From NCBI GenBank assembly GCA_016937175.1, contig JAFGWL010000031.1, positions 1-25,884 on the forward strand: a DNA stretch of 25,884 nt. Direction: 5' to 3'. The position numbers and the translations under genes were made by a program. This document shows positions 9,698-25,772 of this stretch, piece after piece; position 1 is the stretch's first letter; each line of letters begins with the position of its first letter. The DNA is from Candidatus Mcinerneyibacteriota bacterium. Lineage in GTDB: Bacteria > Macinerneyibacteriota > Macinerneyibacteria > Macinerneyibacteriales > DSCS01. The notes under the pieces were generated by a model, which was given only the letters and a program-made list of their open reading frames with translations, did not search any database and was not told where the DNA came from.

Positions 9698-9719
9698 TCC
9701 TCATTTTCTTGAATCTTTT

Positions 9720-9753
9720 AAAAAAAAAGCGGGTTAACCCCCGCTTTTTTTTT
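9720..9753 (+). terminator. Intrinsic terminator after barrel paralog 1
   Basis: A perfect 14-pair stem (A9 plus GCGGG pairing with CCCGC plus T9) encloses the loop TTAACC and ends in the T9 tract at 9745-9753. The A-tract on the other side makes it functional in both directions. It separates paralog 1 from paralog 2. Confidence 0.9.
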
Positions 9754-9779
9754 GTCATTCCTCATTTCTGTGCTATATT
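9752..9779 (+). promoter_or_regulatory. Promoter of barrel paralogs 2-3
   Basis: TTGTCA (9752-9757) is separated by 16 bases from TATATT (9774-9779), which is preceded by TGC, an extended -10. The -35 starts within the last two T residues of the preceding terminator. Transcription should start about 9786, followed by an AAAGGAGG ribosome site and the ATG at 9807. Confidence 0.65.
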
Positions 9780-9806
9780 TATGAAAATCATTAAAGGAGG
9801 TTTTTA

Positions 9807-11042: not shown

Positions 11043-11061
11043 CATCTAAGGAGGAATCATA

Positions 11062-12294
11062 ATGAAAAAATCTCTTATCGTTATCATGCTGCTTCTTATC
11101 CCGGTAATGGTCTTTGCCGTGGATTTTTCCTACTCCGGCATGTTCCGGACTCGCGGGTCTCAGCTGACTGACCCTTACCTGGATAACCTGATCTACGGCG
11201 GAGAAGATGTCATCTCCTGGACCGATTATCAGCTTCAGCTCTTCACCACAGCTGCCATCAATGACAATCTGAGCATGGTGTGGGGAGTCGAAGTGAACGG
11301 TATCTGGGGCGATGAAGACCAGAACCGCGACGAGATCACTGTCATGACTAAACATCTCTATATGGATTTTACCCCCGATATGCTGGACTGGATGCATATC
11401 CGTCTGGGCCTTCAGCCTTATCATGATATCTTCGCAAGTTCCATCTTCGATGAGGACGCCGTGGGTATCTCCCTGATGCCTGAATGGGATACTGCTGATG
11501 TCTCTGTCGGCTACTATGTCTTCCATGATGAAGAGATGTTTGGCGAGTCCAACCGTTTCTGGACCCTGGATGTGGCTAAAAACATGGATGCCCTGACTCT
11601 GAAAGCAGCGGCTCTCATGAACAAGTTCCATATCGCCGGCGGAGGACATAACTACTCCCGCCTCTATATCGGCGCTGCTGCCGACTACAACATGGATAAG
11701 ATGAGCTTCGGAGGCCACTTTGTCTACTCCACCACTTCATTTGAAGAAGACGATTTCAACCCTGACATGAGCGGCTATTTTGCTTACCTGTACGGGAAGA
11801 TGGATGTCACCGAGAAACTCAATGTCAAGCTGAACTTCGGGTATACCCCCGGCGCAGCGGACATGGATTCTGTGACCATGTTCGAAGGGATTGCCCCCTA
11901 TTTCAACCCCTATGGGCTGGAATATCTCTTTGTAGGGCCCGTTGTGGACTTCCCCGTGGGACAGGGCGCTATCCTGAACACCGCCGGCTCCTACATGGGC
12001 TTCCCCAACGGCCTTATGGTTTTGGCTGCCAACATCAACTACGGCATGTTCTATATGAACGCCGGACTGGTGAACGCGGTCATCGACATGGAAGGCGCTC
12101 CTGATTTCGACAAGAACATCGGAACAGAGCTCGATTTCGGGATGAAGACACAGCTCACAGACGGCCTCGATTTCTGCGCTGTCTATGCCCTCTTCATGCC
12201 CGGAAGCTTCATGGAAGATGAATTCATGTGGGGCATGGGAGCTGATCCCAAGACCGCTCATGAACTTTCCGTGAAACTGCAGTATAATTTCTGA
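11062..12294 (+). CDS. Outer-membrane beta-barrel (porin-like) protein, array paralog 3
   Basis: This 410-residue paralog has a signal peptide (MKKSLIVIMLLLIPVMVFA, then VDF) and ends KLQYNF. It carries FSYSGMFRTR, WGVEVNGIWGDEDQNRDEI, HLYMDFTPD, RLGLQPYHDIFASSIFDEDA, YGLEYLFVGPVVD and VYALFMPGSFMED. It is unusually rich in methionine (for example ALMNKFH, MDSVTMFEGI, MWGMGADPKTA). It is closest to paralogs 2 and 4 by these blocks; paralogs 3 and 4 share APYFNPYGLEYLF or MPYFNPYGLEYLF and the FHDEE strand turn. Translation should follow that of paralog 2 through the AAGGAGG site in the 19-base gap. A strong hairpin follows its stop by 15 bases and should reduce transcription into paralog 4. 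Confidence 0.87.
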   Translation: MKKSLIVIMLLLIPVMVFAVDFSYSGMFRTRGSQLTDPYLDNLIYGGEDVISWTDYQLQLFTTAAINDNLSMVWGVEVNGIWGDEDQNRDEITVMTKHLYMDFTPDMLDWMHIRLGLQPYHDIFASSIFDEDAVGISLMPEWDTADVSVGYYVFHDEEMFGESNRFWTLDVAKNMDALTLKAAALMNKFHIAGGGHNYSRLYIGAAADYNMDKMSFGGHFVYSTTSFEEDDFNPDMSGYFAYLYGKMDVTEKLNVKLNFGYTPGAADMDSVTMFEGIAPYFNPYGLEYLFVGPVVDFPVGQGAILNTAGSYMGFPNGLMVLAANINYGMFYMNAGLVNAVIDMEGAPDFDKNIGTELDFGMKTQLTDGLDFCAVYALFMPGSFMEDEFMWGMGADPKTAHELSVKLQYNF

Positions 12295-12309
12295 GAATGA
12301 AATAACAGA

Positions 12310-12342
12310 AGAGGGGAAAGCCGCAGGCTTTCCCCTCTTTTT
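12310..12342 (+). terminator. Terminator-like hairpin between barrel paralogs 3 and 4
   Basis: AGAGGGGAAAGCC (12310-12322) pairs perfectly over 13 bases with GGCTTTCCCCTCT (12326-12338) around a GCA loop, followed by T-residues to 12342. It starts 15 bases after the paralog 3 stop and ends 12 bases before the paralog 4 ATG, so the paralog 4 ribosome site (AGGGAGG) lies immediately after it. There is no room for a promoter between the hairpin and the ATG, so paralog 4 must depend on read-through. Confidence 0.8.
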
Positions 12343-12354
12343 CAGGGAGGATTT

Positions 12355-13566
12355 ATGAAAAAAATTGGGTTGCTTCTTTTGTTTGTCTGTCTGCCTCTCT
12401 TGCTGTTCGGCGTGGACTTTTCCTATCACGGAATGGTGCGCACCAGGACGACTCAGCAGACAGTGATCATTGAAAGCGATATGAATGAGGTCCCCCACGA
12501 CACCATCACCTACTCCGACTACAGGATGCGTCTCTTCACAGAAGCGACGTTCAGTGATGCCCTGAACCTCGTATGGGGAGTGGAAGTCAATGGACAATGG
12601 GGAAACGAAGAACAAAACAGAGATGAGATCAATGTCAAGACCAAACATCTCTACCTGGATTTTACACCTGATTTGGTTCAGATGCTCAACTTCCGTGTAG
12701 GCCTTCAGCCCTACAAGGACATCTACCACGGCGCCATCTTTGACGAAGACGCCATGGGCCTCACCATCACTCCTGAGTTGGAGTTCATTGATTTACAAGC
12801 CGGTTATTTCGTATTCCATGACGAAGAAGCCAATGAAGGGGAATCCAGACGCTTCTTTACCCTGGATGCCGGAAAGACATTCGGAGACCTCACTGCCAGG
12901 ACAGCGGTTCTTTTCAACAAAGATACGGATGAAGAACTCTCTTCCCTCTACTATGGCCTCACAGCCGATTACGCTTTCAACGATCAGCTGAAGGTCGGAG
13001 CCCTCTATGTCTATAATGACAATACATGGCTGCCTGCCGATGAAGACGATTATAATGATCACGGCTCATTTATCTACGGATATGCTTCTTACGCCTTCAA
13101 CGACAAATTGAATATTAAACTCCATTACGGGACCTCGCCAGGGAAGACAAACGACAATGGCGATTATATATCTTTCATGGGAATCATGCCCTATTTCAAC
13201 CCCTACGGGCTGGAATACCTCTTCAAGGGCCCTGTTATGGATGATAACCCCGTGTTTTTAAGTCCTGGTTACGACCTGGACGGAGATTGGTATATCATGG
13301 GACAGCAGGTCATCGCCGCTAATATCGTCTATGACATGTTCTACCTCAATGCCGGCTATGTGACATTGGCTTCTTATGACTGGCCTTCTGATTACCGGAA
13401 TTACACAAAGTCTTTCGGAACAGAACTGGACCTCGGAGTAAAACTTGATGTAGCGGAAGGGTTGGAACTTTCTGCCGTTTATGCCATGTTCATGCCAGGA
13501 GACTTCTTCGAGCTGGACGACGATACCGCCCACGAGATGTCTGCCAAACTTCAGTATAACTTCTGA
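12355..13566 (+). CDS. Outer-membrane beta-barrel (porin-like) protein, array paralog 4
   Basis: This 403-residue paralog has a signal peptide (MKKIGLLLLFVCLPLLLFG, then VDF) and ends KLQYNF. It has all the family blocks: FSYHGMVRTR, WGVEVNGQWGNEEQNRDEI, HLYLDFTPDL, RVGLQPYKDIY, FDEDAMGL, MPYFNPYGLEYLFKGPVMD and VYAMFMPGDFFE. A Cys sits inside the hydrophobic core of the signal sequence (LFVCLPLLL) but lacks the small residues of a lipobox, so lipidation is unlikely. The loops differ strongly in length and charge from paralog 3. It follows the terminator-like hairpin with an AGGGAGG ribosome site and is the last member; a strong plus-strand terminator lies 24 bases after its stop. Confidence 0.87.
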   Translation: MKKIGLLLLFVCLPLLLFGVDFSYHGMVRTRTTQQTVIIESDMNEVPHDTITYSDYRMRLFTEATFSDALNLVWGVEVNGQWGNEEQNRDEINVKTKHLYLDFTPDLVQMLNFRVGLQPYKDIYHGAIFDEDAMGLTITPELEFIDLQAGYFVFHDEEANEGESRRFFTLDAGKTFGDLTARTAVLFNKDTDEELSSLYYGLTADYAFNDQLKVGALYVYNDNTWLPADEDDYNDHGSFIYGYASYAFNDKLNIKLHYGTSPGKTNDNGDYISFMGIMPYFNPYGLEYLFKGPVMDDNPVFLSPGYDLDGDWYIMGQQVIAANIVYDMFYLNAGYVTLASYDWPSDYRNYTKSFGTELDLGVKLDVAEGLELSAVYAMFMPGDFFELDDDTAHEMSAKLQYNF

Positions 13567-13589: not shown

Positions 13590-13628
13590 AACCCGCAGAA
13601 AGCTTTCGGCTTTTTGCGGGTTTTTTTT
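13590..13628 (+). terminator. Intrinsic terminator closing the barrel array
   Basis: A stem of about 12-14 pairs (AACCCGCAGAAAGC with GCTTTTTGCGGGTT, one G-U pair, loop TTTCG) is followed by T8 at 13621-13628. It terminates plus-strand transcription. On the minus strand the same hairpin is followed by TTGAGAATAAG, not a T-run, so it is a poor terminator for the convergent operon, whose last stop codon touches it. Confidence 0.85.
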
Positions 13629-14247
13629 AAAACAGAAAAAGAATTAGAATAAGAGGGAGCGGAAGAAAAGAGCTTCCCGTCTTGACGGTGATACTCAAAA
13701 AAAGAAAGATAAAGGTGAGTAGCGCTGTTTTGCAGAAAAGAGGGAAAAAAGTGCGGGAAAGATTCCGTCCCACCGCCAGGATAATGATGACCCCCGACAG
13801 AGTGATTCCGGCAGAAATGGAATAGCCGGCGATCCAGTGGAAGAGAGCCGCCAGGAGAAAAAGGATTGCAGCAAAAACCAAATGAGGCCACTGACACTTT
13901 CCATGAAGAGGGCCGTGATAAAAACCCTTTTTCTTTTCCCACATTCCCTTGATTACCCGGCCATAATACTTTTCCACGGCCCAGACCGCAGTGACTTCAA
14001 ATAAGAGGAGAGCCCTCAGATTGGCTTCACTCCATTCCAGGGCATAGACCATCACAGTGATCAGGGTAAAAGAAGAGAAGAGGAAGAGCAAGACCCGGCC
14101 TAGACGGCGGTTCACACGCACGCGGATCTCGGCATCCTTTTCAAAAAGGGGATGAAAGGCTCCTCTTTTCCAGACAAAAAGAAAGCTCCCGTAGAGAAGC
14201 CCCGCAAGATTTCCGTAAAGCAAAAGGTTAAAGGTCCAATGCGGCAT
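13627..14247 (-). CDS. Hypothetical multi-pass inner-membrane protein
   Basis: I do not recognise a family for this 206-residue protein. It has about six or seven hydrophobic segments: near 6-25, 50-70 (VLLFLFSSFTLITVMVYAL), 78-93, 120-138 (LVFAAILFLLAALFHWIAG), 142-160, 168-187 and 192-206. The loops between segments 1-2 and 3-4 are basic (EIRVRVNRRLGR, KYYGRVIKGMWEKKKGFYHG) and probably face the cytoplasm. The ATG at 14247 overlaps the Gx gene end by 20 bases, so it is the last gene of the operon. Its position next to Gx, NusG_II and ApbE suggests a role in the same membrane module, which is inference. The reading frame runs up to the terminator, with the stop codon in its T-tract. Confidence 0.65.
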   Translation of the reverse strand: MPHWTFNLLLYGNLAGLLYGSFLFVWKRGAFHPLFEKDAEIRVRVNRRLGRVLLFLFSSFTLITVMVYALEWSEANLRALLLFEVTAVWAVEKYYGRVIKGMWEKKKGFYHGPLHGKCQWPHLVFAAILFLLAALFHWIAGYSISAGITLSGVIIILAVGRNLSRTFFPLFCKTALLTFIFLFLSITVKTGSSFLPLPLILILFLF

Positions 14248-14746
14248 ATCTCACCCTTTTAATGATAAGTCCGGAAAGAAGGCCTATGAGTAAGCCGCTC
14301 ACCGTTCCCCCCAGAAGCATGAGGAAAAAATACCAGAGCAGCTCACTTTTGGGAATAAAGAAGAAGTAGACCACAAGGATCTGTCCCAGATTATTGCAGA
14401 AAGCCCCGCCGATACTCAGAGGGATCAGGCTAAAGCGCCTGAATCCGGCTGTGAGAAAAAGAAGAGCAGCACTGTTTCCCGCAAGAGCGATGAAAAAGGC
14501 TGGGGAGGCCAGTTTCCCGAAGATCAGGGCACTCAGAAAGACCTTGAACAAGACGACCAGAAGAGCCTCTTTCCGGCCCAAAATATAGAGGGCTGAGATG
14601 GTCAGGATATGGCTGAATCCGACCCGTACGGAAGGGATCGGAAGGGTCAGGGCCATGTCAAAGGCATTCAGCAGTATAGCCATGGCAGTAAGAAGGGAGA
14701 CAGCAAGCAATCGCCTCAGGGCCCTCTTCCTACTGTGTGATGACAT
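14228..14746 (-). CDS. Gx transporter family protein (heptaprenyl diphosphate synthase component I-like)
   Basis: This membrane protein of about 172 residues matches the small family named Gx transporter or heptaprenyl diphosphate synthase component I: after a basic N-terminus, LLAVSLLTAMAILLNAFDM, then PSVRVGFSHILTISALYILG, LVVLFKVFLSALIFGKLASPAFFIALAGNSAA and GAFCNNLGQILVVYFFF, giving five to six membrane spans. The family resembles ECF-type substrate-binding components, but its substrate is not established. I chose the ATG at 14746 because an AGGAGG site (14753-14758) lies 6 bases upstream; the adjacent ATG at 14749 is too close to it, and the longer frame to 14839 adds non-family sequence inside NusG_II. 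Adjacency to NusG_II and ApbE is typical of the family. Confidence 0.82.
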   Translation of the reverse strand: MSSHSRKRALRRLLAVSLLTAMAILLNAFDMALTLPIPSVRVGFSHILTISALYILGRKEALLVVLFKVFLSALIFGKLASPAFFIALAGNSAALLFLTAGFRRFSLIPLSIGGAFCNNLGQILVVYFFFIPKSELLWYFFLMLLGGTVSGLLIGLLSGLIIKRVRYAALDL

Positions 14747-15092
14747 CATAACCCTCCTTACGGGCCGGGCAGACGATGAGAGCTGTCCTGTTGGGAGCAC
14801 ATATGATGACCCCTTCTGTGACCCACCCCTGCTTTTCACAGATTTTAAGAGGGCAGCTGGCCTCGGTCACCCGGACACGCCCGCCGGAGATCTCCACCAT
14901 ATGTGTCCCGATGGAAAATTTACTGTCCTTGTCCAGAGAAACCGTCAAGGTCTCCCCGGGCCGTTGGATGACCAGCTCCCCGGCGGCAGAAGAGGCCCTT
15001 TCCCGTTGGTGCAGAGCAACCCGTCCAAAAAGAGCCATCAGAAAAAAAAGAGCCACGAAAAAGAGAAGATCGTTTTTCCTTATCCCTTTCAC
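14730..15092 (-). CDS. NusG domain II-containing protein, membrane anchored
   Basis: This 120-residue protein has one N-terminal membrane segment (DLLFFVALFFLMALFGRVAL, about residues 8-27) followed by an extracytoplasmic domain of the NusG_II type: GELVIQRPGETLTVSL, HMVEISGGRVRVTEASCP, KICEKQGWVTEGVIICAPNRTALIV. The cysteines in SCPLKICEKQGW and IICAPN are characteristic of this stand-alone family and suggest a redox or metal role. The start is GTG at 15092 and forms GTGA with the stop of the radical SAM gene. It overlaps the Gx gene at the other end. The function of the family is not known; co-occurrence with Gx and ApbE suggests an envelope redox context. Confidence 0.85.
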   Translation of the reverse strand: MKGIRKNDLLFFVALFFLMALFGRVALHQRERASSAAGELVIQRPGETLTVSLDKDSKFSIGTHMVEISGGRVRVTEASCPLKICEKQGWVTEGVIICAPNRTALIVCPARKEGYDVITQ

Positions 15093-16099
15093 GTTCCGTC
15101 TCTCCTTTGAGTATCAATGAAAGGGATGTGGCGGCCGCAGCTGGGGCATCGTCCCCCGTCGGCGAGACGGTTCTCCACGGCATATCCTTCCCTGACGATC
15201 ACAGGAAACCCGCAGCCCGGACAATGGGTATCCTGCCCTCCGCTCATATTGCCTCCATAAACATATTCCAGAATCCCTGATGCTTCACGGAGCACTTCCT
15301 CCATAAGCCTCAGGCTTGTGGGAGGCTCCTTCCATTTCCAGGAGGGGTAATATCTGGAGAAGTGGACGGGGACTTCGATGGAGAGTTCTTCTGCTACCCA
15401 GCGGATGAAAGAGCTGATCGATTCCCTATTGTCATTGACTCCTGTCACAATGAGATAGGTGAGTTCAAGATGGACCCCGGCCTGATAGATGCTGCGGGCA
15501 TTGTCCAATATCACTGGAAGCTCCCCCCCGGTAAAACGGCGGTAGACATCTTCATCAAAGGCTTTGATATCAAGATTGACAGCTTTTATCCGGGGAAGAA
15601 GCTCTTCGAGAGGTTCCGGGTTTACATAGCCGTTGGTCACAAGCACTATATCGGGGCATTTGCTTTCCCACAAAGGCACAGAAGAGAAATCAAGGATATA
15701 TTCAAACCACATGAGAGGCTCTGTATAAGTGAAAGCGATTTGTCCGGCCCCCCGTTCTTTCATCAGATGGGCCAGGTTTTCTGGAGAGAGGTACTGTCCC
15801 CGGGCCCGCTCCTGGGAAATGGACCAATTCTGACACCAGGGGCAATGCAGATTACAGCCAAATGAGGCCACAGAAAGGATTTGCGACCCGGGATTGAAAT
15901 GAAAGAGGGGTTTCTTCTCTACAGGATCCATGGAAAGAGCAACGATGTGTCCGTAGTTTTCAGCCAGGAGGGCCCCATCCCGGTTAGCCCGGGTCCTGCA
16001 TATTCCCTCCTGTCCGGGAGAAAGGGTGCATCGGTGGGGACACAGCTCGCACCGGATCCTCTTATCAGAAAGCTCTGTAAAATAGGCGGCCCTTTTCAT
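15089..16099 (-). CDS. amrS: AmmeMemoRadiSam-type radical SAM enzyme
   Basis: This 336-residue protein matches the AmmeMemoRadiSam radical SAM family. It opens with the cysteine-rich block CELCPHRCTLSPGQEGICRTR (about residues 17-37). The iron-sulphur motif is CNLHCPWCQNW, that is CX3CX2C, followed by AFTYTEPLMWFEY and the barrel strands. A C-terminal zinc-ribbon-like segment has CPGCGFPVIV and CPSCGRHIPF. The likely start is the ATG at 16099, preceded by AGAGGAG, within the end of the ApbE gene (35-base overlap); the frame is open to 16270 but that extension is basic non-family sequence. The partner AMMECR1 and Memo genes are not in the window. Its substrate is unknown; the operon suggests modification of an envelope or flavin-linked protein. 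A pyruvate formate-lyase activase is the main alternative and less likely. Confidence 0.88.
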   Translation of the reverse strand: MKRAAYFTELSDKRIRCELCPHRCTLSPGQEGICRTRANRDGALLAENYGHIVALSMDPVEKKPLFHFNPGSQILSVASFGCNLHCPWCQNWSISQERARGQYLSPENLAHLMKERGAGQIAFTYTEPLMWFEYILDFSSVPLWESKCPDIVLVTNGYVNPEPLEELLPRIKAVNLDIKAFDEDVYRRFTGGELPVILDNARSIYQAGVHLELTYLIVTGVNDNRESISSFIRWVAEELSIEVPVHFSRYYPSWKWKEPPTSLRLMEEVLREASGILEYVYGGNMSGGQDTHCPGCGFPVIVREGYAVENRLADGGRCPSCGRHIPFIDTQRRDGT

Positions 16100-17075
16100 C
16101 CTTCTCCTCTGTAAGATTCCATACTCCGATCTCTCCATGGTCATCGACCCATAAGATATGGTTCCGTTCCGATTCTGTTTCCAGCATCTTTTCCCTCTCC
16201 TCTGCGCCTGCAAAATAGGCCGTGGAGAGGATATCGGCATCCAGTCCCGATTCCGCCATGACCGTGACACTGATCAGTCCGCGGGCCGGCTGCCCGGTTA
16301 GAGGGTTCAGAATGTGGTGATACCGGATCCCGTCCCTGATAAAAAAGCGCTCATAATCTCCGGACGTTACAATAAAAAGGCAATCCCCTTTTTCTTCGAT
16401 CCAGGTAAGGACCCCTTCTTCGCGGGGATGACGCACGCCCACTTTCCATAACCGGGGTTTGGATGAGAAAAGGGCTACATCACCTCCGAGATTGAGAACA
16501 GCTTCACTGACTCCCTCTTTTCGGCAGAGATCCGTTAGCCGGTCGAGCAGCCAACCCTTGAAAAGCCCTCCCAGGTCCAGGGAAAGCTTTGCAGGAAGGA
16601 GGATGGTCTCTTCCCCTTCCAGAGAGACAGATGAGACAGCCAGCGCCCGGACGGCTCTTTTCAATTCTTCTTCTCCGGGGATCCGGCCCCCTTCGGAAAA
16701 GGCCCACAGATCCATGAGATCTCCGGTTTCGGGGCGAAAAAAGCGGCGGACAGCGGGCCTCTCTTTTAAATATCGTGCAAGGAGAGCATAGAGCTCTTTG
16801 TCCTCCAGCCGCCCCTCCCTGTTGAGCCGAGAGACTCTCGATCCACCTCGGTAGCGGGAATAGGCCTCCTCCATCTGCCGTATCTCTCTCTCCATCTTTT
16901 CCAGCAGGCCCTCATGGGAGGAGTTGACCTTAAGGGAGCAGTAAGTATCCAAAGCAAAAAATGTTCTCTCGACAAGGGGCTCTCGTTTATTAAAAGGGGA
17001 AAAAATGAAAAGAGCTGCAAGGACAGCGAAGAGAAGACTAATGGACAGAACGGTAAATAAGGGGATTTTCTTCAT
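16065..17075 (-). CDS. apbE: FAD:protein FMN transferase
   Basis: ApbE attaches FMN covalently to Thr or Ser of target proteins outside the cytoplasm. An N-terminal hydrophobic anchor (LFTVLSISLLFAVLAALFIF) precedes the domain, with no lipobox cysteine. Family motifs are ERTFFALDTYCSLKV, SRYRGGSRVSRLNREG, LDLGGLFKGWLLDRL, the FAD-binding VLNLGGDVALF, RHP and HHILNPLTGQPARGLISVTV, and the metal-binding SGLDADILSTAYFAG. I prefer the ATG at 17075 (336 residues), preceded by GGTGAGAGAG; a GTG at 17087 would add four residues. It overlaps the phosphorylase gene by 38 bases. No protein with the usual flavinylation motif is encoded in the window, so the target is elsewhere or atypical. Neighbouring NusG_II and Gx genes are common ApbE companions. 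Confidence 0.92.
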   Translation of the reverse strand: MKKIPLFTVLSISLLFAVLAALFIFSPFNKREPLVERTFFALDTYCSLKVNSSHEGLLEKMEREIRQMEEAYSRYRGGSRVSRLNREGRLEDKELYALLARYLKERPAVRRFFRPETGDLMDLWAFSEGGRIPGEEELKRAVRALAVSSVSLEGEETILLPAKLSLDLGGLFKGWLLDRLTDLCRKEGVSEAVLNLGGDVALFSSKPRLWKVGVRHPREEGVLTWIEEKGDCLFIVTSGDYERFFIRDGIRYHHILNPLTGQPARGLISVTVMAESGLDADILSTAYFAGAEEREKMLETESERNHILWVDDHGEIGVWNLTEEKDEKGRLFYRAF

Positions 17076-18345
17076 ATTCTCTCTCACCGATCATAATCGA
17101 TTTTTCAAGAAGGCTCATAACAGAGGCCTTTTTTGCTTCATCTGCATAGAAGAGGGTGAGAAGGGGATCACCTACACGGACTGAATCGCCTCTTTTCACG
17201 TGGAGTTCCATACCCACATGATGGTTGATGGAATCTCCCTTTTTCAGCCGTCCTCCTCCCAGATAGATCAGAGCTTTTCCCATTGAGAAGGTATCCATCT
17301 CCAGAATGCGGCCGTCCTGTTTGCTCCTGATCTGGATCATCTTCTCAATAAAACGGCCTTCTTCGATTTCTTCCAACGCTTCGGAATCACCCCCCGCGTC
17401 GATGATCATCTTTTTAAAACGCTCATAGGCCTTCCCCGAGCGAAAGATCTTGTCACATCTGTTTATAAACACCTCTTTCTCCTCTTCATAAAAAAGAGAG
17501 TGGATCTCATAGGTAAGAGCCAAGGTCACCTCTTTCAAGTGCCTGTCCATACGCTCTCCGCGTAAAAAGAGAAGAGATTCCATGACCTCAAGGGCATTAC
17601 CGATAGTATAGCCCAGTGGCTGATTCATATCTGTGATCAAAGCTCTGGCTTTTAACCCGGTCTTCTGTGAAACACGCACGAGAGATTCAGCCAGAGCCAG
17701 GGCTTCGCGGGGAGTCTTCATAAATGCACCGTTCCCGCATTTGACGTCGTAGACGATGGCATCGATCCCTTCGGCCTTCTTCTTGGAGACGATGCTGGCC
17801 GTGATCAGGGGAATAGATTCCACAGTACCTGTCACATCCCTCAGCTCATACATCTTTTTGTCCGCCGGGACGATCTCATCCGATTGGGAAAAGATCACCG
17901 ATCCGCTCCTTTGAAGACGGGATGGAAGATCCCGGGAAGAGACTTCGCACTGATAGCCTCTGATAGATTCAAGCTTGTCGATGGTCCCCCCGGTATGGCC
18001 GAGTCCCCGGCCTGCCATCATGGGATTGCAATAACCCAGTTCTGCAAATAAGGGGGCAAGGATCAGGGATACCTTATCACCGACTCCCCCTGTGCTGTGT
18101 TTATCCACTTTCGTCCGGGAAATCGAGGAGAGATCGATCTCTTTTCCCGATTCTATCATAATCTCTGTCAGGCAAGCCGTCTCTTTGACAGAGAATCCCC
18201 TGATCACGCCGGCCATCAGAAAAGCGGACATCTGTTCATCACGGATATCCCCGGCTACATATCCCCGGATCAGATATTTGAGCTCCTGGCGTGTGAGAAA
18301 AACACCGTCTCTTTTTTTTCGTATTAACTCCACAGGATCATACAT
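17038..18345 (-). CDS. deoA: Pyrimidine-nucleoside (thymidine) phosphorylase
   Basis: This cytosolic salvage enzyme splits thymidine, and often uridine or deoxyuridine, with phosphate to give the base and the sugar-1-phosphate. It has the small helical domain (LIRKKRDGVFLTRQELKYLI), the phosphate-binding signature KVDKHSTGGVGDKVSL at about residues 79-94, SGRGLGHTGGT-like MAGRGLGHTGGTIDKLES, DVKCGNGAFMKT (DVKVGSGAFM in many relatives), DMNQPLGYTIGNALEV, and a C-terminal PYNP-type domain (VGMELHVKRGDSVRVGDPL). Its 435 residues are usual. The ATG at 18345 overlaps the phosphodiesterase-like gene by 8 bases and the stop lies inside apbE. Whether it is thymidine-specific or has broad pyrimidine range cannot be told, so the symbol is provisional. 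Confidence 0.94.
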   Translation of the reverse strand: MYDPVELIRKKRDGVFLTRQELKYLIRGYVAGDIRDEQMSAFLMAGVIRGFSVKETACLTEIMIESGKEIDLSSISRTKVDKHSTGGVGDKVSLILAPLFAELGYCNPMMAGRGLGHTGGTIDKLESIRGYQCEVSSRDLPSRLQRSGSVIFSQSDEIVPADKKMYELRDVTGTVESIPLITASIVSKKKAEGIDAIVYDVKCGNGAFMKTPREALALAESLVRVSQKTGLKARALITDMNQPLGYTIGNALEVMESLLFLRGERMDRHLKEVTLALTYEIHSLFYEEEKEVFINRCDKIFRSGKAYERFKKMIIDAGGDSEALEEIEEGRFIEKMIQIRSKQDGRILEMDTFSMGKALIYLGGGRLKKGDSINHHVGMELHVKRGDSVRVGDPLLTLFYADEAKKASVMSLLEKSIMIGEREYEENPLIYRSVH

Positions 18346-19117
18346 ACCGGATCACATCGCCCTGTTGCATCACCTTGATCTCGAATCCCTCCACTTCGAT
18401 ACGTGCGATCTCTTCTTTCAGCTTATCTTCGTAGATGGGTTTCATATGATAGATATAGACATCGATTTTGTAATCTCGCTTCTTCATCTTTTTCAGCTCT
18501 TCTGCCATCATTTCCGGAGTGAGATGTTTAGAAGCCTGTGCCAGCCCTTTCATCTCATTGGGGAAGGATGTTTCCAGGAATATCGCCTTGAGATTGGGCT
18601 CTTTATCTGCCAGGGCCCAGACCTCTTCAGTCTCCCCGGTATCGCTTACATGAAGAAGGGTACTTTTATGGTCACGGATAAAATAGGAGAAGGTGAAGAC
18701 AGGATGGGGGACCTGGACAGGAAGAAAAGTCAACCCGAAGAGTTCAAACTCCTTCTTGTTTTCGATCTCCCGGTAGACATAGACGGGATTTTCCTTAGTG
18801 GGGATCTGTGTAAAATCGGGCCAGAGACTGTTGTTGAAATAATGGTCAGCCACCGCTTTCAGGGTCCTCCTCTCTCCGATGATGGAGACGGGGTTCCCCT
18901 TCCGTCCGATGATATTATCTCCCAGAAATCCCAAATCCTTGATATGATCGATATGTGAATGGGTCAGAAGGACCGCATCCAACATGAGCTGTTCGTCCAG
19001 GTCCAGCGAAGAAGTGAGAGAACCGGCATCAAGGGCAATGGCCTTGTTGATGACAAAACCCGTTGTCTTATAGCCGGGAAGCTGGTTCCCGTAACATCCC
19101 AAAATCCTGATTTCCAT
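18338..19117 (-). CDS. Metallo-beta-lactamase-fold hydrolase resembling class II cyclic-nucleotide phosphodiesterase
   Basis: This 259-residue protein has no signal peptide and a metallo-beta-lactamase fold. The metal motif is LLTHSHIDHIKDLGFL (about residues 51-66), followed by a middle strand region, the HVSDTGETEEV aspartate, an ETSFPNEM strand and SKHLTPEMMAEEL with the last conserved His; near the end comes IYHMKPIYEDKLKEEI. The order HxHxDH, DTG, E-x-SFP, HLTP matches class II 3',5'-cyclic-nucleotide phosphodiesterases (yeast PDE1, CpdP group), though the HSHIDH block deviates from the strict signature. It lies 9 bases after the adenylate cyclase gene with a GGGAGG site, so hydrolysis of cAMP in the cytoplasm is the natural inference. 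A different MBL-fold phosphodiesterase activity cannot be excluded. Confidence 0.78.
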   Translation of the reverse strand: MEIRILGCYGNQLPGYKTTGFVINKAIALDAGSLTSSLDLDEQLMLDAVLLTHSHIDHIKDLGFLGDNIIGRKGNPVSIIGERRTLKAVADHYFNNSLWPDFTQIPTKENPVYVYREIENKKEFELFGLTFLPVQVPHPVFTFSYFIRDHKSTLLHVSDTGETEEVWALADKEPNLKAIFLETSFPNEMKGLAQASKHLTPEMMAEELKKMKKRDYKIDVYIYHMKPIYEDKLKEEIARIEVEGFEIKVMQQGDVIRYV

Positions 19118-19126
19118 ACGTCCTCC

Positions 19127-21259
19127 CTATTTTTCTGTCATGACAAAGGAACCGTCCCAATCGGCCGGAGGGGGTGTCATGCGGTATTGTTCACTCCTTC
19201 CCAGAAGGAGGCGGGACGGCCCGTCTTCCGGCTGGATATCCAGAGTTTCCCGGAAAAGCCTTTCAGCCTCAGCCCAATTCCTCTCCCGGTAGGCCTTGAG
19301 GGCTTCCTCAAATTTAATGAGAAAGATATCAGGGTAAGGCAGTTCCATGACTTCATAGATCCTTGTCGGCTCATTTTTACCCTTGACTTTCACCAGGTCG
19401 ATCTCACGGCAACGGCTCCGGCTCCTGTCAAGAAGCCGGTAAGTATCTTCTGTAATAAGAATATTGACACGGTAAAAACGGGTCAGCCCTTCGATCCGGG
19501 CTCCCAGGTTCACATTATCTCCGATGACCGTATAATCCATCTTCTTTCCCTCGGCCCCGATATTTCCCACGAGCATACTTCCGCTGTTGATCCCGATTCC
19601 CATATCCAGGATATCCTGACCCCGGGCTCTCCACTTCTCCTGGAGCTCCCTGATCCTTCCCCGCATGGCCAGAGCTGTTCTGACAGCCCTCTCTGCGTGG
19701 TCTTCATAAGCGAGGGGGGCTCCGAAGAGGGCCATGATCTCATCACCGACGAACTTGTCCAGCGTTCCGTCATGGGACATGATGACATCGGTCATCTCAT
19801 GAAGATATTCGTTTAACCGCTGGACGACCTCTTCGGGCGGGTGCTCTTCGGTAAATGTGGTAAAACTCTTGACATCTGAAAAGAGGACACTCATATCCCT
19901 CTTCTGGCCGTGAAGAGTAGCCAATTCGGGATTTTTCAGAAGCTCCTGGACGATGTTGGCCGACAAATATGATGAAAACATATCCCGGATCATTTTCTTC
20001 TGTAGTTCTTCCCTGAGATATTTAAAGAAGGTAACCCCCAGAAAGATGACAAAGATAGCTGCCAGGGGTTCCGCCATACGGATATAGACAGAATGTTTGT
20101 ACAGGATAAAGCCGGCGGCGAAAAAGAGGATAAAAAGCAAACCGGCCAAAAGGATATTACGCCACCCCCTGCTCCCCCGCGAGAAAAGGGAAAGGAGAAG
20201 AGCGATCGCCAGGATGATAAGTGTATCTACCCAGAAAGGGACACTCTTAATAAAGCGCCCTTCAAAGATATTGAGAGTCGCGTTAGCCAGATATTCCATC
20301 CCGGGCATCTCTCCTACAGGAGTCATCTTGATATCTTTTGCCGCAGAAGCCAAGCCCCGTGCTGTCATTCCCACAAATGCGATCTTTCCCGTAAGGTCGA
20401 TCTGGGCATGCCCGCTCATAATATGGGCAAAAGAGATATGACGAAACCTGTCATACCCCCGGTAAGAGCTGTAATAGTCCACCAGGCGCCGGCCGGAATC
20501 ATCCAGGGGGATGACCCGTTCTCCCACGACAAGATCCTTTCCTGCAAGGCGGAGCTGATCCATGGGGATCCCGTTGTACTGCATATAGAGTATAACGGGG
20601 AGCGAGGGATAGAGATAACCGTCGAGGATAACATATTCCGTCACTTTTCTAAAGACATTGTCCTCGTCCGCCATCATCCAGTCGTGGCCCAGAAAAGCAT
20701 GGTCTGAGATGGGAGAGACAGTGGGCAGGATCTGGCTGATCCCGGGGATGTTGGGCGGCGCTTCAACAGGGACAGCCCAACGTCTGATATTTTCAAGTGT
20801 CAAGGGGTCTACCGTATAGGTCTCATAACTTCCCCGCATGAGGAAATTGTAGACAAAACCGACATTGCCGGCTTCAGCAGCTGCCTGGTCCATCAGGCCG
20901 TCTTCCGGTGATGTTTCGGGATAGTAGATATCAATAAAGACCAGTTTGGGGTTCATCTCCCCGATCTTCCGGATAAAACGGGCCATGACCTCCCTGTTCC
21001 AGGGCCATCGCCCATACTCCTGGAGAGAATAATCATCAATATCGATAAAGACGAAGGTGGAGAGCAGAGAATCCATCTGCTCCATGGTAATGTCAGCTCC
21101 CTCCACCTTTTCCCGCCCTGTCTCCCTGATAAAGAGCCGGGCGCGAAGGTCATGAAAGATGACTTCCACCCTGTCCCACAAAGCTGGAAACAGCAGGGCT
21201 GAAAAGATAATCAGAAAGGCCAGGGCCAGGGCGAGGAGCGTCGTCTTATAGCGTTCCAT
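19127..21259 (-). CDS. CHASE2-domain adenylate cyclase (class III)
   Basis: This 710-residue membrane protein has one N-terminal span (about 8-27), an extracytoplasmic CHASE2 sensor (about 30-330, with FVFIDIDDYSLQEYGRWPWNR, KLVFIDIYYPE and IAFVGMTARGLASAAKD, the usual CHASE2 landmarks), three further spans (about 345-420) and a cytoplasmic class III cyclase domain. Both metal-binding Asp are visible in VLFSDVKSFTTFTE and KFVGDEIMALFGAP, the Lys before FVGD favours ATP, and DYTVIGDNVNLGARIEG carries the adenine contact and the Asn/Arg transition-state pair. A C-terminal TPR-like hairpin (FEEALKAYRERNWAEAERLFRETLDIQP) follows. It should make cAMP in response to an envelope signal. It is two bases from the cyclic-nucleotide-binding gene and nine from the phosphodiesterase-like gene. 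Confidence 0.95.
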   Translation of the reverse strand: MERYKTTLLALALAFLIIFSALLFPALWDRVEVIFHDLRARLFIRETGREKVEGADITMEQMDSLLSTFVFIDIDDYSLQEYGRWPWNREVMARFIRKIGEMNPKLVFIDIYYPETSPEDGLMDQAAAEAGNVGFVYNFLMRGSYETYTVDPLTLENIRRWAVPVEAPPNIPGISQILPTVSPISDHAFLGHDWMMADEDNVFRKVTEYVILDGYLYPSLPVILYMQYNGIPMDQLRLAGKDLVVGERVIPLDDSGRRLVDYYSSYRGYDRFRHISFAHIMSGHAQIDLTGKIAFVGMTARGLASAAKDIKMTPVGEMPGMEYLANATLNIFEGRFIKSVPFWVDTLIILAIALLLSLFSRGSRGWRNILLAGLLFILFFAAGFILYKHSVYIRMAEPLAAIFVIFLGVTFFKYLREELQKKMIRDMFSSYLSANIVQELLKNPELATLHGQKRDMSVLFSDVKSFTTFTEEHPPEEVVQRLNEYLHEMTDVIMSHDGTLDKFVGDEIMALFGAPLAYEDHAERAVRTALAMRGRIRELQEKWRARGQDILDMGIGINSGSMLVGNIGAEGKKMDYTVIGDNVNLGARIEGLTRFYRVNILITEDTYRLLDRSRSRCREIDLVKVKGKNEPTRIYEVMELPYPDIFLIKFEEALKAYRERNWAEAERLFRETLDIQPEDGPSRLLLGRSEQYRMTPPPADWDGSFVMTEK

Positions 21260-21261
21260 CT

Positions 21262-21924
21262 TCAGGCCCCGGTATAACGTTCCTTCAGTTCCAGATATTC
21301 CATGAATTTGCCGAGGTCATCCCCTTCACGCACGATATACTTTCCGTCCCCGACGACGGCGATCCGGCTCCGGACCAGGATCTCAAGGACCTCCATGACC
21401 TTCCCGATAGGCAGAGCCAGACGGGAAGAGAGATCTTTTTGAAGTTCACTGTAGTCAAAGACATATCCTTCTTCACTCTTAGGAGCCTTGGAGATGATCA
21501 TTTTAAGAGTCCCGACTATACGTGAGACGATATCCTGGAGCATGAGGTTCTCGATCTGTTTGTCGGTATCACGGATCCGTGCACTCATCTTTTTGAGGAT
21601 CTGCATGATGATCTTGGGGTTAGTCTGGATCTGGGATTCGAAGACTTCCCTGTCGATGACGATCAGTTTGGTATGATCCTCTTCCACGATGGCTGTGGCA
21701 CTTCTGGGATAATCATCGATGATAGACATCTCTCCGAAGAAATCCCCGTCAGAAAGGACCGCCAGCGTGGTTTCCACATCCCGTGATTTTTTTGTAATCT
21801 TGACTTTTCCTTTGAAGATGATATACATGGTCTCGCCTTTTTCTCCCTCATAAAAGACGATATCGCCTTTCATATATTCACTTCCGAACTTTTCAAATAC
21901 TTTCTCGCTGACATTTACACCCAA
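21262..21924 (-). CDS. CRP/FNR-like cyclic-nucleotide-binding transcription regulator
   Basis: This 220-residue protein has an N-terminal cyclic-nucleotide-binding barrel whose phosphate-binding cassette reads FFGEMSIIDDYPRSATAIV (about residues 83-101); the Glu of FGE and the Arg of PRSAT are the residues that hold cAMP or cGMP. A long dimer helix follows (ILKKMSARIRDTDKQIENLMLQDIVSRIVGTL), then a winged-helix domain (DYSELQKDLSSRLALPIGKVMEVLEILVRSRIAVVGDGKYIV). This is the CRP layout, but the recognition helix lacks the typical SRETVSR core (here ALPIGKVMEV), so DNA binding is probable rather than certain. The start is TTG at 21924 with AGGAGG 6 bases upstream. It lies between glmS (16-base gap) and the adenylate cyclase, so it is the obvious receptor for that enzyme's product. 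Confidence 0.88.
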   Translation of the reverse strand: MGVNVSEKVFEKFGSEYMKGDIVFYEGEKGETMYIIFKGKVKITKKSRDVETTLAVLSDGDFFGEMSIIDDYPRSATAIVEEDHTKLIVIDREVFESQIQTNPKIIMQILKKMSARIRDTDKQIENLMLQDIVSRIVGTLKMIISKAPKSEEGYVFDYSELQKDLSSRLALPIGKVMEVLEILVRSRIAVVGDGKYIVREGDDLGKFMEYLELKERYTGA

Positions 21925-21930
21925 GGCCTA

Positions 21931-21936
21931 CCTCCT
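21931..21936 (-). promoter_or_regulatory. Ribosome binding site that fixes the TTG start of the cyclic-nucleotide-binding protein
   Basis: AGGAGG on the minus strand is 6 bases from the TTG at 21924-21922, within the short gap after glmS. The next in-frame ATG (in EYMKGD) would remove the first strand of the barrel, so TTG is favoured. Confidence 0.65.
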
Positions 21937-21940
21937 TTAT

Positions 21941-23779
21941 TTATTCCACCGTCACACTCTTCGCCAGATTACGGGGCTGATCCACATCACACCCCCGCTC
22001 AACAGCTGTGAAATAAGCCAGCAGCTGTAAAGGGATGGTGTTGATAACCGGAGTCAATGCCTGAACTGTGAAGGGGACATAAAGCACATCGTCCACCAGT
22101 TCTTTGATCTTTTTATTTCCTTTAGTCGCTACGGCGATGACCTTGCCGTTGCGGGCTTTCACTTCCTGGATATTGGTTATGACCTTTTCATACATGATAT
22201 CATCATCGTTAGCCAGGACCACGCAGGGCATATTCTCATCGATGAGCGCGATAGGGCCGTGCTTCATCTCTGCAGCAGGATATCCTTCAGCATGGATATA
22301 GGAGATCTCTTTGAGTTTAAGAGCCCCTTCAAGGGCCACGGGATAATTGATATGACGCCCGAGAAAGAGGGCATTCTCTGCTTTCCGGAAATAACGGGCT
22401 ATCTTTTTGACATCTTCTTCATGTTGGAGGAGTTCTGTGATCTTCTCCGGCAGGGCCTGGATCTCACGCACCATGTTTTTCCCCTGGCTCAGGGAGTAGT
22501 CACGTCTTCTTCCCAGATAGAGGGCGATAAGCGCCAGAACCATGACCTGTGAAGTAAACGCCTTCGTCGAGGCTACCCCGATCTCCGGCCCCGCGTGGAT
22601 GTATACTCCGGCATCTGTCTCCCGTGCGATAGTAGACCCCACCACATTACAGATCCCGAAGACGCGGGCCCCTTTTCTTTTGGCTTCTCGCAGCGCCGCC
22701 AGGGTATCAGCCGTCTCCCCGGATTGGGAGATCACAAAAAGAGCGGTCTTCTCTTCAATAATCGGGTTTCGGTAACGGAATTCGCTGGCATACTCCACTT
22801 CCACGGGGATTCCGGCAATGCTTTCGATCAGATACTCTCCTATAAGGGCCGCGTGCCATGACGTGCCGCACGCTGTGAGAATGATCCGGTTGACATTACG
22901 AAAAAAATCATTGTAGTCGGCCAGCCCCTGAAGGATGGCATCCCCGTTCTCCGCATCAAGGCGGCCCCGGGTCGCATTGAGGATAGTGCTGGCCTGCTCA
23001 TGGATCTCCTTGAGCATGAAATGGGGATATCCGTTCTTCTCGATCTCGGTCAGGTCCATATCGATGGTATGGACTTCGACTTTTTTTTCGCGGTTGTCTT
23101 TGATATCTGCCAGCTTAATCCCTTCCCGGGCGTCCACGGCGACGATCTCTCCCTCTTCAAGAAAGATGACATCCTTGGTAAAACGGACGATGGCAGCTAC
23201 ATCACTGGCGACAAAATATTCTCCAGCCTCTCCCTTGGCCACGACCAGGGGGCTTCCCAGCCGGGCTGCTATGATCCGCCCGGGATTATCCCTTTCGATC
23301 ACAGCGATCCCGTAGGTGCCCTCGACATTGAGGAGAGCTTCACGGACAGCTTCAAACAGGTCACCTTTATAATACTCTTCAAAGAGGTGCGCCAGGACTT
23401 CTGTATCTGTCTCGGTATAGAACTGATGCCCTTTTTTCTCCAGATAGATCTTCAGGGAACGGTAATTCTCAATGACTCCGTTATGGACTACAGCCAGCTT
23501 TCCGCTGCAATCCAGATGAGGATGAGCATTGATATCGTTGGGAGCTCCGTGTGTCGCCCAGCGCGTATGGGCGATCCCCGTCCTGGAATCGTAGTGTTTT
23601 TTCTCGATCTTGCGGCTAAGCATCTCCACTTTCCCGGCTACTTTATCGATGATAATATCATTTTCTCCCAGGATAGCGATCCCGGCTGAGTCATACCCTC
23701 TGTACTCTAATCTCTTCAACCCGTCAAGAAGGATGGGGACAGCGTTTTTGCTACCTGTATACCCGACGATTCCGCACAT
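21941..23779 (-). CDS. glmS: Glutamine-fructose-6-phosphate aminotransferase (isomerising)
   Basis: GlmS makes glucosamine-6-phosphate from fructose-6-phosphate and glutamine, the first step to UDP-GlcNAc for peptidoglycan and LPS. The protein starts MCGIVGYTG, giving the catalytic N-terminal Cys after Met removal, with RGYDSAGIA, THGAPNDINAHPH-type glutaminase residues and HNGVIENY. The two SIS domains carry ACGTSWHAALIGEYLIE, ISQSGETADTLAAL, ASTKAFTSQ and the catalytic EMKHGPIALI, and it ends PRNLAKSVTVE, as full-length GlmS proteins do (612 residues). It is the first gene of the long minus-strand operon, with its own promoter upstream. The predicted leader of about 29 bases is too short for a glmS ribozyme. 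The 16-base gap to the TTG-started regulator gene indicates co-transcription. Confidence 0.98.
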   Translation of the reverse strand: MCGIVGYTGSKNAVPILLDGLKRLEYRGYDSAGIAILGENDIIIDKVAGKVEMLSRKIEKKHYDSRTGIAHTRWATHGAPNDINAHPHLDCSGKLAVVHNGVIENYRSLKIYLEKKGHQFYTETDTEVLAHLFEEYYKGDLFEAVREALLNVEGTYGIAVIERDNPGRIIAARLGSPLVVAKGEAGEYFVASDVAAIVRFTKDVIFLEEGEIVAVDAREGIKLADIKDNREKKVEVHTIDMDLTEIEKNGYPHFMLKEIHEQASTILNATRGRLDAENGDAILQGLADYNDFFRNVNRIILTACGTSWHAALIGEYLIESIAGIPVEVEYASEFRYRNPIIEEKTALFVISQSGETADTLAALREAKRKGARVFGICNVVGSTIARETDAGVYIHAGPEIGVASTKAFTSQVMVLALIALYLGRRRDYSLSQGKNMVREIQALPEKITELLQHEEDVKKIARYFRKAENALFLGRHINYPVALEGALKLKEISYIHAEGYPAAEMKHGPIALIDENMPCVVLANDDDIMYEKVITNIQEVKARNGKVIAVATKGNKKIKELVDDVLYVPFTVQALTPVINTIPLQLLAYFTAVERGCDVDQPRNLAKSVTVE

Positions 23780-23814: not shown

Positions 23815-23843
23815 AAAATACCACACTTTTCAGATCATTTCAA
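23815..23843 (-). promoter_or_regulatory. Promoter of the glmS-cAMP-redox operon
   Basis: On the minus strand TTGAAA (23838-23843) is separated by 17 bases from TATTTT (23815-23820). Transcription would start about 23808, leaving a leader of about 29 bases with an AAAGGAG ribosome site. A TATGAT further downstream is an alternative -10, but its matching -35 is poor. Confidence 0.55.
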
Positions 23844-23897: not shown

Positions 23898-25772
23898 TCA
23901 TATCGATGTATTTCTTATATAGAGCCTGTAGACCTCTTCAGCTTCCTCATAAAGAGCCATAAACGAGGCCATAAGCCGGCCGGCCTTCTGATAATCTCTC
24001 CGGTCGAGGAGCAATTCGATCTCCGAAGCCATAGAGGGAGCAGATCTGCTGTCTTTCAGCAGAAGCCGTCTCTTCCCCTCAAAATCTTTCCATAAGCGCT
24101 TGTCCCTTCTCTCCTCCCGCCCAGGCCTCCTCTGACAGGAGGCGAGAGACTGCCTTACAGCGGGGAAGACCTTCTCCCGGATCTCGACGATCCATTTGTT
24201 CAAAGAGGCCCTCAGGGCGGAATCGATGATCTCGCTCCGGAAAGGAGTCTGTTCCAGGGGAGAGCGGTCAGCCTCGCGGAAGGCCTCCAGGATATCCCAC
24301 ACGGTCTCGGGAGCTTTCCCGTAGAGCTTCTCCCTCTCTTCATGGCTCAGAGAGGAGAAAATATTCTCTTCAGAGACATACTCTCTGTATTGTTCCAGGT
24401 AGATGGAAGGTTCACCGTACTTTTTTGTGAGTTCTCCGTGAAGCTCTTCCCTTTTTCTCGTCATAGCATACTTCATCCCGTCGATCATGGCCAGATAGAC
24501 AGCTCCTGCAGCAAGATAGGTATTGGTATGAGGATGAGGGGCCCGCAATTCAAAACGGGTCGAAAGGGGATTGTCTGAGCGGATAAGCCCTACCAGGACC
24601 GTCCTGTTCCGGCTTGGCGACCGGGAGGATTTCCCCAGGGATGCCACGACAGATACCGGGGCCTCGAAACCGGGTCTTAATCGGTTCAAGGCGTCCAGCG
24701 AATGGGTCACAAAGGGATTGATGAGGGCCCAGTGTTTGAGAAGGCCCATGAGAGCTCCGTATCCCATCCGTGACATAAAGGTATCAGAGGAGGCCGGCGA
24801 AAACAGATTGATCTTTTCTCCTCTGCGTGTAACGAATCCCATTCCGAAATGCATATGTTCCCCGCTGCCGGCTATCCCGCGCATAGGTTTGGCATCAAAC
24901 GTGACTTCAAGCCCGTTTTTCCGGAAGATCTCCTTGATAAGGATACGGGCATAGAGCTCCTTGTCTGCCGCCGCCAGAGGCCGGTCATAACGCCAGTCGA
25001 TCTCCAGCTGTTCCATGATCCCGTGGAAAGAGCCGTCGGGAGAGAGTTTCGCTTTGACACCCCCTACCTCCTTATGTCCCATTTCCACCTGGTATCCGTA
25101 AGCGTCGAGGGTCAACAGTGTCTCTTCCAGGGCTCTTCTGACCTGCCCCTTGGTCCTTTTCCAGTAACTTTCCTTAAGCATCTGGCTCATTGAGAGCTCT
25201 TGAAGAGGGACTTGTTCTGCAGGAGTCCTGACCCAGAACTCCAGTTCAGTCCCCAGAGTCAAATAAACACGTTCCACCTCTTCAGCGCGGAAACCCCGCT
25301 CTTCTTCAAAAAGGGGATCGTTCTGAAGTATCTCAAGGACACGGTTTTCTGTGAAAGCAGCTGTCTCTTTCAAGAGGGAACGGGAACAATAAGTGTCGTC
25401 CCCGTGTTTGAAAAAAGCCGGAATCCGCAAAGTGGAAAGGTAATCCCCGTTTTCCAGGGGATATTCCCTGTTCTCATCCACATACCACTCTCCTGTTGTA
25501 TCGACGATAAAATCGATTTTGGCATCATTGAGAGTGGCGATCCCGGGGAGATTGACCGAAGAGCCATCTGTCTGGACTCCGCCGTCCATGATCTCACGGA
25601 GGTGATCCAGAAAGTAAGAGACAGGGATCCGTTCATCCGTATCATTTCCAAGAAAATCCACGCCCACCAGGGAGACGAACCGGATCTCAGGCCGGCCTCT
25701 TAAAAATTCCGGAAGAGACTCGCTGTTCTTCACATCTCCGGGGACAACAGTGAACTTCCCTTTTTCTTTCAT
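23898..25772 (-). CDS. Glutamine synthetase-family protein, long atypical form
   Basis: Glutamine synthetase joins ammonia and glutamate using ATP. Recognisable blocks occur in order: VQTDGSSVNLPGIA, LGTELEFWV (metal Glu), MGHKEVGGVKAKLS and EQLEIDWRYDRPLAAADKELY, AGSGEHMHFGMGF (the GSGxHxH nucleotide/glutamate block), RPGFEAPV, SRNRTVLVGLIR and RFELRAPHPHTNTYLAAGA (substrate Arg residues). EKLYGKAPE resembles the NLYDLPPE site of GSI, so the adenylylatable Tyr may be conserved. At 624 residues it is about 150 longer than bacterial GSI and shorter than GSIII; the extra length is mainly a charged helical C-terminal tail (about 480-624). Start is the ATG at 25772 with an AGGAGGG site. True glutamine synthesis is likely but not certain; a gamma-glutamyl ligase relative is the alternative. 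Confidence 0.85.
   Translation of the reverse strand: MKEKGKFTVVPGDVKNSESLPEFLRGRPEIRFVSLVGVDFLGNDTDERIPVSYFLDHLREIMDGGVQTDGSSVNLPGIATLNDAKIDFIVDTTGEWYVDENREYPLENGDYLSTLRIPAFFKHGDDTYCSRSLLKETAAFTENRVLEILQNDPLFEEERGFRAEEVERVYLTLGTELEFWVRTPAEQVPLQELSMSQMLKESYWKRTKGQVRRALEETLLTLDAYGYQVEMGHKEVGGVKAKLSPDGSFHGIMEQLEIDWRYDRPLAAADKELYARILIKEIFRKNGLEVTFDAKPMRGIAGSGEHMHFGMGFVTRRGEKINLFSPASSDTFMSRMGYGALMGLLKHWALINPFVTHSLDALNRLRPGFEAPVSVVASLGKSSRSPSRNRTVLVGLIRSDNPLSTRFELRAPHPHTNTYLAAGAVYLAMIDGMKYAMTRKREELHGELTKKYGEPSIYLEQYREYVSEENIFSSLSHEEREKLYGKAPETVWDILEAFREADRSPLEQTPFRSEIIDSALRASLNKWIVEIREKVFPAVRQSLASCQRRPGREERRDKRLWKDFEGKRRLLLKDSRSAPSMASEIELLLDRRDYQKAGRLMASFMALYEEAEEVYRLYIRNTSI

Follow-up and report, generated by a model that had tools for sequence, protein, structure and literature searches.

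A conserved three-gene set with a class II-type phosphodiesterase candidate is present in the window (the whole stretch of 25,884 nucleotides that was analysed), and the finding is real and wider than the window alone. The genes encode a CRP-fold cyclic-nucleotide-binding protein (CNB), a CHASE2-domain class III nucleotidyl cyclase (CYC) and a PDE1/YhfI-like phosphodiesterase candidate of the metallo-beta-lactamase fold (MBL). The trio is probably a real signalling cassette. We consider it likely that the cassette runs on cyclic nucleotides, with CYC making cAMP, CNB reading it and MBL hydrolysing it. This reading rests on the genes themselves, their families, their catalytic residues, two predicted folds and the adjacency of the genes across lineages.

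Layout of the locus

The original prediction described three nearly abutting genes, and they were found as such. CNB, CYC and MBL are head-to-tail ORFs on the minus strand between glmS and a deoA-like gene, with gaps of 2 nt (CNB/CYC) and 9 nt (CYC/MBL). CNB starts 16 nt past glmS, and at the other end of the block MBL and deoA share 8 nt. Because these neighbours are so close or overlapping, the block lies within a longer same-strand gene run. glmS and CNB are probably on one transcript, and the three genes of the block would be co-transcribed. The features of the locus are the following.

23815..23843, minus strand: promoter-like site upstream of glmS, from a scan that as a whole was at chance level
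21941..23779, minus strand: glmS (NCBIfam glmS, 812.6 bits), 16 nt upstream of CNB
21930..21937, minus strand: Shine-Dalgarno-like site AAGGAGGT, read directly from the sequence, 5 nt upstream of the CNB start codon TTG
21262..21924, minus strand: CNB, CRP-fold cyclic-nucleotide-binding protein, 220 aa, TTG start (ORF; Pfam cNMP_binding, 2.9e-23)
19127..21259, minus strand: CYC, CHASE2-domain class III nucleotidyl cyclase, 710 aa (ORF; Pfam CHASE2, 3.3e-39, and Guanylate_cyc, 2.2e-27)
18338..19117, minus strand: MBL, PDE1/YhfI-like metallo-beta-lactamase-fold phosphodiesterase candidate, 259 aa (ORF; Pfam; AF2)
17038..18345, minus strand: pyrimidine-nucleoside phosphorylase, deoA-like (NCBIfam TIGR02644, 488 bits), overlapping MBL by 8 nt

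A promoter and terminator scan gave counts at chance level and no firm boundary within the block. The whole genome has just four cNMP-binding matches and three class III cyclases, and chance adjacency of the three genes is therefore unlikely.

Other genes surround the block. The same-strand run continues after the cassette (13627-17087, minus strand) with apbE, genes for a radical SAM protein and a NusG-II-like protein, and a putative membrane transporter. Where the radical SAM gene begins is uncertain, since its ORF overlaps apbE. A 624-aa protein with a glutamine-synthetase domain is encoded at 23898-25772 (minus strand). It scores 112 bits against a GlnA equivalog cutoff of 429, so far under it that the protein appears to be an unusual glutamine synthetase. 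Four tandem paralogous ORFs on the plus strand (8552-13566) resemble outer-membrane beta-barrels, with signal-like N-termini and a C-terminal Phe, which is odd given that the nearest named relative is labelled Bacillota.

The phosphodiesterase candidate

The best Pfam match of MBL is Lactamase_B_2 (PF12706, 4.9e-15), followed by PDEase_II (PF02112, 3e-13), and Lactamase_B is matched as well. The PDEase_II score of 50.1 bits is above the gathering score of 23.7, and all 38 members of the MBL family match this model at E 0.001 or better. The HxHxDH, DTG, SFP and HLTP motifs first noted in the sequence, along with the FGE...PRSAT cassette of CNB, were all located. MBL thus has, within its MBL fold, the HxHxDH dimetal motif by which class II (PDE1-type) enzymes are recognised.

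18944..18961, minus strand: HSHIDH metal-binding motif, residues 53-58; H53, H55, D57 and H58 are invariant in the 38-member alignment
18815..18838, minus strand: FNNSLWPD motif, residues 94-101, from the alignment to 4ojv; yeast PDE1 has FNDLIWPD
18635..18643, minus strand: DTG, residues 159-161; D159 is invariant in the 38-member alignment
18560..18574, minus strand: ETSFP, residues 182-186 (SFP 184-186)
18515..18526, minus strand: HLTP, residues 198-201; H198 and P201 are invariant in the 38-member alignment
18437..18448, minus strand: HMKP, residues 224-227; H224 is nearly invariant and P227 invariant in the 38-member alignment

MBL is closest to a proven class II member, since yeast PDE1 comes first both by sequence profile and by VIA-align Z. 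A family profile built from the 38-member alignment matched, among solved structures, yeast PDE1 (1e-18) ahead of YhfI (3.8e-15), with both a YhfI-like protein and RNase Z behind them at about 1e-12. Fold prediction for the 18338-19117 product, which had been proposed as a check, gave an AF2 model of the MBL fold with a mean pLDDT of 97.4. Its top VIA-align match is yeast PDE1 (4ojv; Z 29.3, 253 of 259 residues, 2.1 A, 26% identity), followed by the YhfI-like protein and YhfI at Z 28 (YhfI 28.0) and RNase Z at 26-27. Foldseek placed YhfI marginally above PDE1, so that the two are nearly tied in structure. Fold resemblance alone is no proof of MBL function. The grouping of MBL with cyclic-nucleotide phosphodiesterases is supported by sequence and model, and its activity is a predicted one. 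The N-terminus (MEIRILGCYG) is without an evident signal peptide, which would fit a cytoplasmic enzyme.

RNase Z was considered as the identity of MBL and dropped; a match to that group would have told against the original assignment. MBL scores 31.7 bits against the NCBIfam RNase Z equivalog, whose cutoff is 292.95, whereas a true RNase Z is encoded elsewhere in the same genome (G000:C28; 313 bits against the cutoff of 293). RNase Z rows split from the MBL family with support of 88-92 in a quick tree, in which some long branches make that support modest. Of 93 MBL family rows, 79 carry the FN..WPD motif, and the nine rows of RNase Z or RNase-Z-like proteins all lack it. The closest structures are PDE1 and YhfI.

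The receptor and cyclase candidates

CNB contains the cNMP-binding barrel and phosphate-binding cassette of a CRP-family receptor. In an alignment of 26 relatives its G64, E65, R74, A76 and A78 are invariant, and it retains both the cassette arginine and the C-helix arginine. In CRP, T127 and S128 are the residues that contact adenine. This T-S pair is absent from CNB, which has T120-D121 in the window and mostly A-D in the relatives. The CRP fold was confirmed by a structure search with the AF2 model (pLDDT 87), which matched CRP proteins at Z about 17-18 and found cAMP receptors to be the closest structures. The model has a winged-helix arrangement, with uncertain domain placement (pTM 0.52). 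DNA binding by CNB is plausible. Mean column identity in the CNB alignment is 60% in the barrel, 27% in the winged-helix part and 47% in the C-terminal helix, and HTH_Crp_2 is matched in 21 of the 26 relatives, the window CNB not being among the matches.

21694..21738, minus strand: phosphate-binding cassette of CNB, FGEMSIIDDYPRSAT (FGE...PRSAT), residues 63-77, from the sequence
20192..21214, minus strand: CHASE2 sensor domain of CYC, residues 16-356 (Pfam)
19367..19903, minus strand: cyclase catalytic domain of CYC, residues 453-631 (Pfam); D, D, K, T, N and R are kept in the trio-cyclase alignment
19130..19174, minus strand: conserved C-terminal tail of CYC, PPPADWDGSFVMTEK, after a TPR-like stretch, of a pattern common to most trio cyclases

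Class III cyclases depend on a pair of metal-binding Asp residues, a Lys and Thr of the adenine type, and an Asn and Arg. CYC keeps all six in the alignment of trio cyclases, and its Pfam matches (CHASE2 and Guanylate_cyc) agree with the earlier description of a CHASE2 class III cyclase with ATP-type residues. The TPR-like end and the tail PPxxxWDGxxxxxxK are common to most trio cyclases and the window CYC, which suggests that the trio cyclases are of one origin.

There is a minor but appreciable chance that the cassette uses one or more cyclic nucleotides other than cAMP, with an MBL that is relaxed or prefers cGMP and a CNB that binds a different cNMP. Such a choice would agree with the loss of the T-S adenine contacts from CNB, and the class III Lys and Thr favour ATP without proving it. 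Additionally, yeast PDE1, by the title of Tian 2014 (cited in PMC9117128), is a cNMP phosphodiesterase for both cAMP and cGMP, and Apyc1, of the same fold group as MBL, cleaves all cNMPs equally (PMC9117128). Against this, the Lys and Thr of CYC are of the adenine type, the CNB structure matches cAMP receptors best, and a preference for cAMP and cGMP over cCMP and cUMP is seen in YhfI, where it is strong, and in another bacterial MBL phosphodiesterase (PMC9117128). We retain cAMP as the probable messenger.

Conservation of the gene set

Searching for the three-gene neighbourhood across genomes, as had been suggested, showed the genes adjacent in a same-genus relative and in many genomes of another phylum, where the order is different. 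Of the two outcomes named beforehand as refuting the idea, a grouping of MBL with RNase Z and a lack of adjacency in every relative, neither was thus observed. The same-genus relative retains the order glnA-glmS-CNB-CYC-MBL-deoA-apbE. The other phylum, that of genome G030, comprises 179 genomes with sizes up to 13.8 Mb, from which 36 MBL loci in 20 families were sampled. MBL is present in 145 of the 179 genomes. CNB lies directly upstream of MBL on the same strand in 32 of the sampled loci (17 families), the trio CYC-CNB-MBL, as opposed to CNB-CYC-MBL in the window, occurs in 21 (14 families), and accD is close downstream of MBL in 13. Two genomes of 10-12 Mb have only 11 and 16 CNB-profile matches, so adjacency of CNB and MBL would be rare by chance. 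In the phylum of G022, MBL occurs in four of five genomes, each time in the arrangement CNB-MBL-accD.

Some genomes contain open frames of 480-520 aa that could be read as CNB-MBL gene fusions. This was rejected, because the CNB match sits in a different frame of the same DNA, and the long frames are better seen as upstream extensions in high-GC DNA. At one locus (L021 3000-4103, genome G016), in-frame TAA codons occupy conserved Glu positions of both MBL and accD on one contig. An alternative genetic code was discarded, since TAA closes intact ORFs on other contigs of G016; a local lesion or an error in the sequence is the likelier cause.

MBL is carried by 64 of 386 diverse bacterial genomes. 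At 40 further MBL loci there was a strong CNB neighbour at 9, a cyclase neighbour at about 5 and accD at 6, and many had none of these; the loci with a CNB or cyclase neighbour belong to diverse families. Loci named as Deltaproteobacteria have MBL with accD and folC, in genomes without a close relative of CNB (best CNB scores of about 50-91 bits, where true relatives score 279-345). Further neighbours are GAF-domain proteins, trpA and folC; accD, folC, trpA and GAF genes were identified by eye from sequence. Many lineages have accD after MBL (L003-L011, L022, L044, L074-L077, L080-L094), with folC next in several, and at L185, L191 and L199 a GAF-domain-like protein, as judged by eye, adjoins MBL instead of CNB or a cyclase. 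Many genomes have an MBL with neither partner, often next to accD or folC. MBL is therefore not restricted to the circuit, and its ancestral role may be wider.

This wide distribution bears on whether MBL acts on another phosphodiester, such as an RNA end, a 2',3'-cNMP or a nucleotide-like metabolite, and so has a linked but different job. We regard that as improbable. It draws on the frequent presence of MBL without CNB or CYC beside accD, folC or trpA, on the precedent of SpdA in Sinorhizobium meliloti (PMC4222275), and on the functional diversity of the MBL superfamily, Lactamase_B_2 being the top Pfam match. PDEase_II coming second also counts against a cNMP phosphodiesterase, as does the score of MBL against the NCBIfam equivalog for Rv1339-type phosphodiesterases (NF041851), which is 26.6 bits where the cutoff is 400. 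However, the best sequence and structure matches of MBL are cNMP phosphodiesterases, the FN..WPD motif is common to MBL and PDE1 and absent from RNase Z rows, and MBL is strongly associated with an adjacent CNB in the phylum of G030. It is very improbable that the gene order reflects chance or housekeeping and lacks functional coupling: the block does belong to a long run of genes on one strand that includes glmS and deoA, and MBL-accD linkage does occur independently, but other lineages link the same partners in different orders and neighbourhoods.

The proposed circuit and comparable systems

In the cAMP cassette that we favour, CYC would sit in the membrane, with its CHASE2 domain detecting a signal from outside the cytoplasm and its class III domain converting ATP to cAMP. 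A single messenger would serve all three proteins. CNB would bind it and pass the signal on, most likely via regulation of transcription. MBL, as a class II (PDE1/YhfI-like) dimetal phosphodiesterase, would cleave the messenger to 5'-AMP and thereby end or limit the signal. A more specific proposal has a small chance of being right. It holds that this is a discrete, widespread second-messenger cassette with a dedicated class II phosphodiesterase, linked through accD to fatty-acid synthesis, in which CNB is not a conventional transcription factor and acts through its barrel and C-terminal helix, perhaps on a protein partner.

Should the proposal for the trio be right, the making, reading and removal of cAMP would be inherited as one self-contained circuit, and this in lineages whose cAMP signalling has received little study. 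The trio offers a clear, testable three-protein system, and the presence of accD beside MBL in many genomes prompts one to ask whether cAMP and fatty-acid synthesis are linked. Among the open-access full texts searched, none described the trio with a PDE1-like enzyme. Typical class II phosphodiesterases are described as mainly of unicellular eukaryotes (PMC9293780), and the occurrence of a PDE1-like family in so many diverse bacterial genomes contrasts with that description.

The closest characterised parallel that we found is the cyaD1 locus of S. meliloti, with CHASE2 cyclases, the CRP-like receptor Clr and SpdA (PMC4222275, PMC13001267). There, an outside signal raises cAMP and activates Clr (PMC4222275, PMC13001267). 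Like the window, this locus brings together a CHASE2 class III cyclase, a CRP-family receptor and a phosphodiesterase-like gene; it differs in content, and the likeness is one of gene kinds. SpdA is a class III metallophosphoesterase, unlike the class II-type MBL. With 3',5'-cAMP it showed no detectable activity, its substrate being 2',3'-cAMP (PMC4222275), and this is the main caution for reading MBL function from its neighbourhood.

Yeast PDE1 (4ojv), a typical class II enzyme, has in common with MBL the full-length fold and the HxHxDH, FN..WPD and GHLxP-type motifs. It is about 110 residues longer and has no operon context, and the activity of the bacterial MBL is only predicted. The YhfI/Rv1339 group of bacterial MBL phosphodiesterases is already known (PMC9293780). 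These atypical class II enzymes (Rv1339, YhfI and CpdA of C. glutamicum) have the MBL fold and the motif [T/S]HxHxDH (PMC9293780), which reads THSHIDH in the window MBL; YhfI differs in that the FN..WPD of the MBL family did not align there. The anti-Pycsar phosphodiesterase Apyc1 (7u2r) belongs to the same fold group as MBL (Z 25.6) and differs in being of a phage-encoded family with relaxed specificity (PMC9117128). Its Pfam model is matched by two of the 38 MBL family members and not by the window MBL. CNB has the cNMP barrel, C-helix and, in its model, the winged-helix arrangement of CRP and the cAMP receptor proteins of E. coli and M. tuberculosis, and differs from CRP in its altered adenine-contact pair, its weakly conserved winged-helix half and its conserved C-terminal helix.
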